Source of the DNA: Comamonas testosteroni ATCC 11996
GTDB taxonomy: Bacteria; Pseudomonadota; Gammaproteobacteria; Burkholderiales; Burkholderiaceae_C
Length of the DNA: 64,000 nucleotides
NCBI RefSeq assembly: GCF_000241525.1
Contig: NZ_AHIL01000049.1
Coordinates: forward strand, 186,001-250,000
Direction of reading: 5' to 3'
Below the pieces are notes generated by a model that ran no database searches, had not been told where the DNA came from, and saw only the letters and a program-made list of their open reading frames with translations. How positions within the stretch are numbered: position 1 is the stretch's first letter; every line of letters begins with the position of its first letter. This document shows, one piece after another, positions 24,668-29,339 of this stretch. Both the position numbers and the translations under genes were made by a program.

Positions 24668-24703
24668 AAAAAAGCCGGTGCGCTTTTGGCGACACCGGCT
24701 TTG
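24668..24703 (-). terminator. terminator between the two leuA genes
   Basis: AAAGCCGGTG and CACCGGCTTTTTT arms on the minus strand, directly after the 557-residue synthase stop. Confidence 0.8.
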
Positions 24704-24709
24704 AACCTT

Positions 24710-26383
24710 TTAAGCAGCTACCGCCTCTTCAGCGACAGCGGTAACGCGCTGTACTCCCGAGATGATGGCGCGCAACGAGGCGGAAACGATATTGGCATCC
24801 ACCCCTACGCCGTAGCAGACCTGAGCGTCATCCACGCGCAATTCCACATAGGCAATCGCCTTGGCATTCGCACCCTCGCCAATCGCATGCTCGGCATAGT
24901 TGAGCACGCGCACATTGCGACCGACGTTAGCCGACAACGCCTGCACGAAGGCATCAATGGGGCCCGTACCTTCGCCTTCCAAAAAATACTTTTCTCCGGC
25001 GATCTCGATGTGGGAAGTCATATTGACCACCCCATCTGCCTCGCTCAGGCGATATTGAGGCGCCTTGACGGTGTTGACTCCATATTCGCGCTGGAACAGC
25101 TCCCACAGATCCGCAGCTGACAACTCCTTGCCGCTGGCATCCATCTCGCGCTGCACGACCTGGCTGAATTCGATCTGCAGGCGGCGGGGCAGCTGAAGTC
25201 CGTATTCGCTCTCGAGCAGATAGGCAATGCCGCCCTTGCCCGACTGGCTGTTCACGCGAATCACTGCCTCATAGCTGCGGCCCAGATCCTTGGGATCGAT
25301 GGGCAGATAAGGCATATCCCAGATATCGCCTTCCTTGTGGGCGGCGAAAGCCTTCTTGATGGCGTCCTGGTGGGAGCCGGAGAAGGAGGTGTAGACCAAG
25401 TCACCCACGTAAGGATGACGAGGATGCACGGGCAACTGGTTGCAATGCTCGACCGTTGCGCGGATATCGTCGATGTCGGAGAAATCCAGGCCGGGGTTCA
25501 CGCCCTGGATATACATATTGAGCGCCACATTCACCACGTCCAGATTGCCGGTGCGCTCGCCGTTACCGAACAGGCAACCTTCCAGACGGTCCGCGCCAGC
25601 CATCAGGGACAGCTCGGCAGCCGCCGTTCCCGTGCCGCGGTCGTTATGCGGATGGACCGAGATCACCACGCTGTCACGGCGCTTGATGTTGCGATGTGTC
25701 CACTCCACCATGTCGGCAAAGATATTGGGCGTGGAGTGCTCCACCGTGGTGGGCAGGTTGATGATGCACTTGTTCTCGGGCGTGGGTTGCCAGACATCGG
25801 TGACGGCGTCGATCACGCGCTTGGAGAACTCCAGCTCGGTGTCCGAATACATTTCGGGCGAATACTGGAAAGTCCACTTGGTCTGGGGGTGCTGGGCCGC
25901 GATGTCCTTGAACATCTGCGCATTGGTCACCGCCAACTCCACAATCTCGTCTTCACTCATGTTCAGCACCACGCGGCGCATCACGGGAGCCGTGGCGTTG
26001 TAGAGATGGACAATCGCGCGGGGCACGCCTTCGAGCGCCTCGAAAGTGCGACGAATCAGGTGCTCACGCGCCTGGGTCAGCACCTGTACGGTCACGTCGT
26101 CGGGAATGCGGTTTTCCTCAATGAGCTTGCGCATGAAGTCGAACTCGATCTGCGAGGCCGAAGGAAAGCCGACTTCGATTTCCTTGAAGCCGATCTTCAC
26201 CAGTTGCTCGAACATGCGCACCTTGCGCTCGATGTCCATGGGCTCGATCAAGGCCTGGTTGCCGTCACGCAGATCCACGCTGCACCAGACCGGGGGCTTG
26301 GTGATGACCGCGTTGGGCCAGGTGCGATCGGTCAGACGCACGGGGGTGAAAGCGCGGTATTTGGTGGAAGGGTTTTGCAACAT
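24710..26383 (-). CDS. leuA: 2-isopropylmalate synthase, long (557-residue) type
   Basis: A 557-residue form resembling fungal and actinobacterial synthases rather than the short bacterial type. It begins with the extension [17 protein letters not shown], then [16 protein letters not shown], with metal-binding [11 protein letters not shown] and the [12 protein letters not shown] segment; the leucine-binding regulatory domain covers about 430-555. It is preceded by a leucine-rich leader peptide and attenuator, so it is likely the main, leucine-controlled gene for leucine synthesis here. It lies after pssA on the same strand. Confidence 0.94.
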
Positions 26384-26449
26384 GGTGAGTCTCTTTAGTC
26401 GAAATTAGAGGAAATTGAACCCAGCTCCAGCGACGCCCAAAAGCAAAAA

Positions 26450-26475
26450 CGGCCCGTCGCTGATGCTACGGGCCG
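26450..26475 (-). terminator. attenuator terminator of leuA
   Basis: CGGCCCGT and ACGGGCCG arms around a ten-base loop, followed on the minus strand by TTTTTGCTTTT. It lies between the leader peptide stop and the leuA start. Its 5' arm can instead pair with ACGGGC at 26515-26520 at the end of the leader ORF. Confidence 0.85.
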
Positions 26476-26503
26476 CCAAGTAGGGTGTGTTTGTACGCGC
26501 GCG

Positions 26504-26557
26504 CTACTTTCTCTGCCCGTTGGACATTAGTAGTAGAGCTAGCGACAGGTTTTGCAT
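26504..26557 (-). CDS. leuL: leucine leader peptide of leuA
   Basis: A 17-residue ORF, MQNLSLALLLMSNGQRK, with five leucines in positions 4 to 10. Four are the rare CTA codon (three of them consecutive), which is unusual in this GC-rich genome and makes translation sensitive to charged tRNA-Leu. The last codons overlap ACGGGC (26515-26520), which can pair with GCCCGT in the terminator's 5' arm. Also present is AAGTAG (26504-26509) pairing with CTACTT (26478-26483). This is the classic layout of ribosome-mediated attenuation. Only a weak ribosome binding site (GTGAG) is visible. Confidence 0.8.
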   Translation of the reverse strand: MQNLSLALLLMSNGQRK

Positions 26558-26614
26558 GCGGCTCACTTTAACACAAGAAAAGTTGACAGGGCCAGGATTT
26601 TTTCGACGAAGGTT

Positions 26615-27484
26615 TCAATCGTCGTGCAGGCCGCGCTCGTCGGGTTCGTCCTTGGAGGTCGCCACGATGCTGACCTGCTCGCCCTTGGCACGACGCCAAA
26701 CATAGATCACATAGCCCGAGACCGAGTAACCGACAAACACCAGGAACAGCATGGTTGCAGGCTCGATACTGACCACGGCCATCAGCAGCGCCACCACCAC
26801 CAGCGAGACGAACGGCATGCTCTTGGCGCCGCCGATGTCCTTGAAGCTGTAATAGGGAATATTGGTGACCATGGTCAGGCCCGCGAACAGCGTGATGGCG
26901 AACATGATCCAGGACAGATCGGCCCGATCCGTGGGATAGCCACCGAACCAGGAAATCACATCGCCAAAGATGGGCACATCGCGATGGGAAACCATCAAGG
27001 CACTGGTCAGCCAGATAAAGCCCGCCACCAGAGCCGCGGCCGCAGGCGAAGGCATGCCCTGGAAGTAGCGTTTGTCCACCACGGCCGTATTCACGTTGAA
27101 GCGCGCCAGGCGCAATGCCGCGCAGGCGCAATAGACGAAGGCGGCAATCCAGCCCCAGCGCCCCAGGGGACGCAAGGCCCATTCATAGGCAATCAGCGCA
27201 GGCGCGGCACCAAAGGACACCATGTCGGAGAGCGAATCCATCTGCTCGCCGAACGCGCTTTGCGTGTGCGTCATGCGCGCCACGCGGCCGTCAAGACTGT
27301 CGAGCACCATGGCGCAGAAAACGCCCACGGCCGCCAGTTCGAACTTGTTGTTCATGGCCATGACGATGGCGTAGAAACCGCCAAACAGCGCTGCCAGCGT
27401 GAACAGATTGGGCAGCACATAAATGCCTTTGCGCGGCTTGCGCGGCATTCCACTCAGATCGGCAGAATCATTGCTGTTTTGCAT
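26615..27484 (-). CDS. pssA: CDP-diacylglycerol-serine O-phosphatidyltransferase
   Basis: A 289-residue multi-pass membrane enzyme making phosphatidylserine from CDP-diacylglycerol and serine, the precursor of phosphatidylethanolamine. The CDP-alcohol phosphotransferase motif reads DSLDGRVARMTHTQSAFGEQMDSLSD. About eight hydrophobic helices follow. Start ATG 27484 lies eight bases after GGAGG; the longer frame to 27508 is not needed. It sits between ilvC and leuA, a setting found in other betaproteobacteria, but with a terminator upstream (27611) it probably has its own promoter. Confidence 0.93.
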   Translation of the reverse strand: MQNSNDSADLSGMPRKPRKGIYVLPNLFTLAALFGGFYAIVMAMNNKFELAAVGVFCAMVLDSLDGRVARMTHTQSAFGEQMDSLSDMVSFGAAPALIAYEWALRPLGRWGWIAAFVYCACAALRLARFNVNTAVVDKRYFQGMPSPAAAALVAGFIWLTSALMVSHRDVPIFGDVISWFGGYPTDRADLSWIMFAITLFAGLTMVTNIPYYSFKDIGGAKSMPFVSLVVVALLMAVVSIEPATMLFLVFVGYSVSGYVIYVWRRAKGEQVSIVATSKDEPDERGLHDD

Positions 27485-27517
27485 CAAACAGACCTCCAGT
27501 GCTTGCATGTCAAATGC

Positions 27518-29264: not shown

Positions 29265-29339
29265 TGGGAGATTCCTCTTTTCGCCGCCCTCCCCTGACAC
29301 CGGTAAGTGCCAGGCTCGGCGGACAATAGATTCGTCAAA

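Follow-up and report, generated by a model that had tools for sequence, protein, structure and literature searches.

A conserved candidate leucine attenuator with a predicted promoter of its own precedes the long leuA gene of Comamonas testosteroni

In the 64,000-nt stretch of the Comamonas testosteroni ATCC 11996 genome analyzed here (hereafter the window), the long leuA gene appears to be preceded by a transcription attenuator that has its own promoter and senses leucine through a translating ribosome, a reading to which we assign a probability of roughly 85%. It draws on the sequence, its conservation among relatives, predicted RNA folds and covariation, and from these we infer a transcription start site, translation of the leader, a response to leucine and insulation from upstream transcription. 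Several of the signs are weak by themselves (the fold of the whole stretch, the comparison of the antiterminator pairing with shuffles, and the chance expectation of the promoter element), and the case rests on conservation. The principle of such a device has long been known; in this version, transcription seems to start at the start codon itself, and an extra conserved RNA segment is present. Three features described below are absent from the initial annotation, namely the -10-like box with its leaderless start, the pairing of the stop region and the fifth segment.

Layout of the locus

All of the elements lie on the minus strand (Table 1). The upstream neighbour is a gene that we take to be pssA, following the initial annotation and general knowledge, and the leader ATG lies 57 nt past its end, as had been described; a DEP..ERGLH-like C-terminal coding end is also found ahead of the leader in some relatives. 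The leader reads ATG CAA AAC CTG TCG CTA GCT CTA CTA CTA ATG TCC AAC GGG CAG AGA AAG TAG. Its 17-residue product contains four leucines encoded by CTA, three of them consecutive, and one encoded by CTG, and we found no error in the earlier description of this sequence. The same gene cluster carries an ilvH RNA (RF02993, 93.9 bits, E 1.7e-19) at window positions 29269-29336 of the minus strand, which is likewise a cis element but has another place and another model; the leuA element does not match RF02993. Further downstream, between the long leuA and a short leuA, the minus strand has a simple hairpin with a T-run (24668-24700), near which no leader peptide was seen by eye.

Table 1. Features of the leuA leader region and its neighbours, in window positions.
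Feature	Position	Strand	Basis
pssA-like gene, upstream neighbour	26615..27508	minus	ORF list
Extended -10-like element TGtTAAAGT, 7 nt ahead of leader ATG	26565..26573	minus	sequence; conservation
Predicted transcription start, at the A of the leader ATG (26557) or an adjacent base	26556..26558	minus	inferred from -10 spacing
Leader peptide ORF MQNLSLALLLMSNGQRK, UAG stop	26504..26557	minus	sequence; conserved in relatives
Control codons: CTA at codon 6 and codons 8-10	26528..26542	minus	sequence, codon counts
Segment 1:2 hairpin: UGUCC (26526-26522):GGGCA (26518-26514), CUACU (26536-26532):AGUAG (26508-26504)	26504..26536	minus	MFE fold
Segment 2: ACGGGC (26520-26515) and AAGUAG (26509-26504)	26504..26520	minus	sequence, pairing analyses
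Segment 3: CUACUU (26483-26478) and GCCCGU (26473-26468)	26468..26483	minus	sequence, constrained fold
Intrinsic terminator: core 3:4 stem within 26475-26450, U-tract 26449-26445	26445..26475	minus	fold, alignment
Terminator loop and start of 3' arm, UCAGCGACG, pairs with segment 5	26455..26463	minus	complementarity, covariation
Segment 5, CGUCGCUGG, 3' of the U-tract	26427..26435	minus	covariation; changes on leuA tree
Long leuA (2-isopropylmalate synthase, 557 aa), regulated gene	24710..26383	minus	ORF, homologues

Conservation in the family and other leaders

Regions upstream of leuA were gathered from four sources: sampled relatives, 150 family genomes, stretches taken by place and 80 named loci. 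A long leuA was found at E <= 1e-150 in 73 of the 150 family genomes. The resulting 91 family loci do not include L138, for which the contig provides only 34 nt of upstream sequence. A leader and terminator were parsed by script in 75 of these 91 loci and in 9 of 11 named relatives (L031-L041), 84 in all. One script-parsed locus, L168, carries a different sort of leader and terminator and was not counted as having the device; the device was seen by eye in two unparsed loci, L114 and L133 (the latter with leader, terminator and, by eye, segment 5). The device is thus present in 76 of the 91 family loci, 74 by script and 2 by eye. Counts of the antiterminator pairing, linkers, spacing and leuA accessibility use 78 loci (without L040, L168, L123 and L151), the test of segment 5 uses 80 (without L040 and L168), and the structural alignment uses 76, from which L003, L023, L024 and L035 are also omitted. 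Three groups of 28 loci (the window's clade), 25 loci (Roseateles-like) and 25 loci were drawn by the analyst from the alignment and the stop codons; one alignment (A5) was judged by eye, and no counts were taken from it.

The device is missing from 15 of the 91 family loci (L163, L166-L179), whose leuA is 53-63% identical to that of the window and several of which have another kind of leader. We observed this different kind before other long leuA genes, about 52-59% identical, at L183 (G000:C21:322101-322661), L171, L172 and L175-L179: Leu codons are followed by GGCCGGGGTC, repeated downstream as GACCCCGGCC, and several loci have CATCCCCTG-like and CAGGGGATG-like stretches. By eye, the leaders of L171, L172 and L175-L179 show no clear U-tract, and L183 was seen as the peptide alone.

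A leader similar to that of the window, matching the RNA model over all positions, also precedes a short leuA in three relatives (L209, L210 and L214), which lie outside the long-leuA matches of the 150-genome search. A covariance model of 48 rows (R1) retrieved matches in 17 of 300 genomes of the order at E <= 0.01; since its rows omit five loci (L003, L023, L024, L035 and L141) and the whole Roseateles-like group, R1 under-counts. On reading the sequences, three of the matches (L216, L217 and L219) look like unrelated terminators, and six more (L215, L218, L220 and L221-L223) look like aromatic leaders before DAHP-synthase-like genes. L223 (G000:C9:11299-11452 minus) is in the same genome as the window and forms a second, apparently leaderless attenuator, with a leader containing aromatic residues (MQTQRAYFFYFWFSPPAAER), TGCTACATT 7 nt before its ATG, a terminator-like hairpin with a T-run, and then a gene that, from its protein sequence, is presumably DAHP-synthase-like. 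L221 and L222 are of this sort, and L215, L218 and L220 are similar attenuators in other families. We also considered leuC as a second target; in this genome, the best match to leuC (L199) has a 5' region in which no leader peptide, terminator or segment-5-like sequence was seen by eye.

Control codons

The rarity of CTA noted in the initial annotation is borne out by the counts. Only 6 of the 391 Leu codons in 11 window genes are CTA versus 4 of 5 in the leader, and the probability of at least four of five is about 3e-7, uncorrected for searching. The annotation had named loss of the Leu codons in related genomes as evidence against the device, and we found CTA in all 82 distinct leaders parsed (L168 included), with two or more CTA codons in 81 of them. 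Across these leaders CTA makes up 229 of 361 Leu codons. In a set of 49 family leuA genes, which includes the window's own gene and one partial gene (L133), it accounts for 1 of 2119.

Terminator and alternative structures

The strong terminator that had been proposed is supported by its fold of -21.4 kcal/mol (z -4.32), which none of 200 shuffles equalled, whereas the whole stretch 26435-26560 has a z of -1.75, with 15 of 200 shuffles folding as well. In the 76 aligned loci, the 3:4 terminator stem is paired in 99.3% of cells and has double changes at 4 of its 8 pairs. With this stem and the recurrence of the arrangement in relatives, interpretation of the element as a transcription attenuation device is supported.

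The pairing first recognized, between ACGGGC in the last codons of the leader and GCCCGT in the 5' arm of the terminator, 41 nt apart, is present in the window but is part of a larger set. In the leader-only MFE fold, UGUCC:GGGCA is extended by pairing of CUACU in the Leu codons with AGUAG in the stop region, giving the 1:2 hairpin; the Leu run thus pairs with the stop region. In a constrained fold of L001, with the ribosome-covered part kept single-stranded and the helix between the terminator loop and segment 5 enforced, ACGGGC:GCCCGU and an inner helix AAGUAG:CUACUU form together. The latter helix alone can coexist with the terminator, in a second predicted fold. We therefore have a predicted antiterminator (2:3) and a predicted anti-antiterminator (1:2) that would be mutually exclusive, to which the downstream fifth segment is added. 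In the window's clade, the models indicate that the stop region AAGUAG can pair either with the CUA codons or with the CUACUU before the terminator, and CTAC is found in the linkers of 27 of the 28 loci (6.2 expected) versus 1 of 25 and 0 of 25 in the other two groups; the linkers of L141 and L153 are probably mis-measured, because the terminators of these two loci have no exact GGCCCG. The Roseateles-like group is built differently: 14 of its 25 loci have TGATC at the stop, and 20 have GATC or GATT ahead of the terminator.

Conservation of the ACGGGC/GCCCGT pairing, the other comparison named in the initial annotation, is exact in 42 of 78 loci. Most of the remaining loci have a shorter or wobble-containing pairing, and five pair poorly (L130, L136, L147, L153 and L155). 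Both sides have changed with pairing kept in L132 (GCGGGC:GCCCGC) and in L142 (GCGGGU:GCCCGC, with a G-U), there is little covariation in this helix, and shuffled leader 3' ends match the pairing in 18% of cases (mean over the 78 loci). CGGG is present in 72 of 78 leaders; the stop codon lies 8-13 nt downstream of its first base, which itself follows the first CTA by 15-27 nt and the last CTA by 11-18 nt. By this spacing, a ribosome at the stop codon would cover CGGG and a ribosome on the first CTA would not. The last CTA starts just 11 nt ahead of CGGG in 26 of the 72 leaders. As a ribosome covers about 12 nt downstream of the translated codon, according to one description of its footprint (PMC4833913), a stall at the last CTA would probably cover part of segment 2 in many leaders, that of the window among them, while stalls at the earlier CTA codons would not.

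Promoter and predicted leaderless start

Among the 82 distinct leaders, 71 have a TAnnnT upstream of the start codon at a distance of 6 nt (10 leaders), 7 nt (49) or 8 nt (12), and 68 of these carry the extending TG. When each leader is instead represented by its best-scoring -10 element, this lies at 6-8 nt in 72 of 82; of the ten others, seven have it at 9-10 nt, two (L123 and L151) reflect a start codon called at a later in-frame ATG, and one (L040) is unclear. A Shine-Dalgarno-like 4-mer precedes only 1 of the 82 leaders (L034), and none precedes the window's leader, versus 23 of 82 leuA genes, for which the search window was slightly wider. With the usual spacing of a -10 element, transcription would start at the AUG or one base before it. 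This fixed spacing, along with the scarcity of Shine-Dalgarno sequences, suggests that the leader mRNA is probably leaderless, with transcription beginning at or beside the AUG, and that leuA has its own predicted promoter directly before the leader. The proposal that the attenuator may act inside an ilv-pssA-leu transcript is consequently at best half right. In Burkholderia cenocepacia, leaderless transcripts are described as having a promoter motif directly upstream in place of a Shine-Dalgarno sequence (PMC4603805). Among 34 script-picked candidate Leu leaders of distant loci, the raw count of those with TAnnnT 5-9 nt before the ATG is 19, and two Streptomyces loci (L098 and L109) are among the 15 without it.

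A fifth conserved segment

Segment 5 is complementary to the terminator loop and the start of the terminator's 3' arm. Of 80 loci compared with shuffles of their downstream sequence, 66 have a better complementarity at p<0.05 and 53 at p<=0.01. Across the 76 aligned loci, its nine pairs are formed in 86.0% of cells versus 77.4% in shuffles, with 63 double-change cells versus 24.1 (sd 5.3) in shuffles that ignore relatedness. The covariation score is 0.282 versus 0.158 in shuffles (reached by 0 of 500, again ignoring relatedness), and slid controls do not exceed 0.088. Double changes occur at six of the pairs, a number that 52 of 500 shuffles also reach. Placing the changes on a tree of 49 leuA loci gave 25 double-change branches over the nine pairs. 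A pair is kept on 7 of them (2, 1 and 4 at three pairs) and not on the other 18, 8 of which fall at the outermost pair and 5 at pair 25-75. RNAalifold on the 76-locus alignment predicted the terminator alone and no segment 5 helix.

The innermost pair, which shares its C with the terminator stem, is possible in 58 of 76 loci, and the next pair into the stem in only 17 (12 G-C and 5 G-U). A loop helix with so little reach into the stem suits a pseudoknot that coexists with the terminator better than a rival hairpin. As segment 5 is transcribed after the U-tract, its position rules out a part in the termination decision. A role in translation control is not supported either. When the leader and leuA start were folded together in two forced states, the leuA start was more accessible in the antiterminated one in just 41 of 78 loci (means of 0.52 versus 0.49), and 6 of 78 show a pairing of segment 5 with the region of the leuA start that beats shuffles at p<0.05.

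We tentatively suggest, as a possibility short of an even chance, that pairing of the terminator loop with segment 5 in read-through leuA mRNA is a fifth RNA-level module, which would provide a second control step after termination, in cis or in trans. The geometry would allow an H-type pseudoknot, with a 7-bp terminator stem, an adjoining 8-bp loop helix and the U-tract as a long loop. In cis, the pairing would act on the stability or processing of leuA mRNA; in trans, the loop of the terminated leader RNA, of about 110 nt, would pair with leuA mRNA, comparable to the trp attenuator RNA that acts in trans in Sinorhizobium meliloti.

Alternative explanations

Segment 5 could instead be an inverted repeat at the DNA level, or one of mutational origin, that has no RNA role (an operator or the product of quasi-palindrome correction), and we regard this as a possibility to be held just as tentatively. 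Template-switch correction can make double changes appear compensatory, most of the double-change branches (18 of 25) lose the pair, and no effect on the accessibility of the leuA start was found. Unlike an operator, however, segment 5 changes its letters with pairing kept, as seen in the excess of double-change cells (63 versus 24 shuffled) and in the seven branches that retain a pair. Base pairing might likewise be the main reason for the CTA codons, with CUAC kept to pair with GUAG of the stop region and not as a slow or sensitive codon. CUACU:AGUAG is indeed present in the MFE fold, and UAG is the stop of 60 of the 82 leaders. Nevertheless, in the Roseateles-like group the stop is UGA in 19 of 25 leaders and the alternative pairing is built differently, yet every leader keeps at least one CTA; the UAG pairing is thus not the whole reason for CTA, and the codon identity itself appears to be selected. 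Two or more CTA codons in 81 of 82 leaders are also more than the pairing requires. We disfavor pairing as the sole reason and consider it unlikely to be the main one.

The start of the transcript is a separate matter. The attenuator could lie on a normal 5' UTR, or solely on an ilv-pssA-leu read-through transcript, and not be leaderless: merely 57 nt separate pssA from the ATG, the leaderless status is deduced from sequence alone, and in a window of this size and composition 2.6 matches to TGnTAnnnT at 6-8 nt before an ATG are expected by chance on both strands, where one is found, at this leader. The constant spacing between the -10-like box and the ATG, seen in 71 of 82 leaders, and the near-absence of Shine-Dalgarno-like 4-mers (1 of 82, versus 23 of 82 before leuA) make this improbable in our view. 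It is still harder to read the hairpin as no more than the ilv-pssA operon's terminator, with the leader ORF arising incidentally from the leuA promoter region. A U-tract is present and the hairpin lies downstream of pssA, but a predicted promoter and a conserved Leu-coding ORF stand between the two, CTA is present in all 82 distinct leaders, and the same arrangement recurs before the short leuA of three relatives; we consider this explanation very improbable.

Comparison with known systems

The leu attenuator of Salmonella and Escherichia coli (leuL) has a Leu-rich leader peptide, alternative hairpins and an intrinsic terminator before leuA. In an Rfam 15 search of positions 26380-26640, neither the Leu_leader family (presumably RF00512) nor other leader families were matched up to E 10, with a sub-threshold suhB match (E 5.7) alone being returned, and the T-box covariance model likewise gave no match up to E 10 in this region. 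Searching Rfam with seven loci of the leucine and aromatic kinds up to E 0.1 yielded a sub-threshold microRNA match alone. The element described here therefore resembles leuL in its Leu-rich leader with rare CUA codons, its alternative hairpins and its intrinsic terminator before leuA, but differs from it in having no Rfam match, a -10-like box adjoining the start codon, no Shine-Dalgarno sequence, a UAG stop that takes part in the alternative pairing, a fifth segment after the terminator, and a position behind pssA. The Salmonella leu leader is described as carrying rare CUA control codons, the replacement of which by CUG lowered the sensitivity of the attenuator (PMC1183508).

Leader ORFs at the 5' end of the RNA, as predicted here from the start site, have been described for two attenuators: the leaderless trpL peptide of S. 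meliloti (PMC7298713), which differs in sensing Trp, and the leaderless LeuL1 peptide of Streptomyces lividans (PMC8079986), which also precedes leuA but is described as lacking a typical Rho-independent terminator, which is present here. The LeuL1 peptide was also found in Streptomyces L098 and, inside a longer ORF, in L109. The actinobacterial LEU element (PMC1262725) similarly has a Leu-run uORF ahead of leuA and a proposed pseudoknot; as described there, it has a base stem between the Leu codons and the leuA Shine-Dalgarno sequence and no classical terminator, in contrast to the terminator and the extra helix between its loop and segment 5 in our element. We met no report of this element in the Comamonadaceae among literature titles and abstract openings, and the proteobacterial attenuators of Vitreschak et al. 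2004, which are outside this comparison, may include an earlier mention.

Proposed mechanism and implications

In the mechanism that we propose, RNA polymerase would start at or beside the leader AUG, and a ribosome would load on the leaderless mRNA and trail the polymerase. If the tRNA-Leu for CUA is sufficiently charged, this ribosome would reach the UAG and cover segment 2 (or segments 1 and 2 would pair after its release), segment 3 would pair with segment 4, and transcription would stop before leuA. When leucine is short, the ribosome would stall in the CUA run and cover segment 1, leaving ACGGGC...AAGUAG free for CUACUU...GCCCGU, and formation of this 2:3 pairing would block the terminator and allow leuA to be transcribed. 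Transcripts arriving from ilv-pssA would mostly form 1:2 and 3:4 at the leader and stop by default, since they have no Shine-Dalgarno sequence at the leader, so leu would be insulated from ilv transcription.

The leaders collected here form a large alignable set of leucine attenuators within one betaproteobacterial family, in which CTA is nearly absent from the leuA genes counted and yet is present in every distinct leader examined, and they provide a natural test of whether sensitivity to tRNA charging determines the choice of control codons. If the leader is leaderless, it links the alphaproteobacterial trpL case with the actinobacterial leuL case, and it would account for an attenuator within a gene cluster that is unaffected by transcription entering from upstream. 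Such a leaderless device may answer solely to its own promoter and shut off ilv-pssA read-through.
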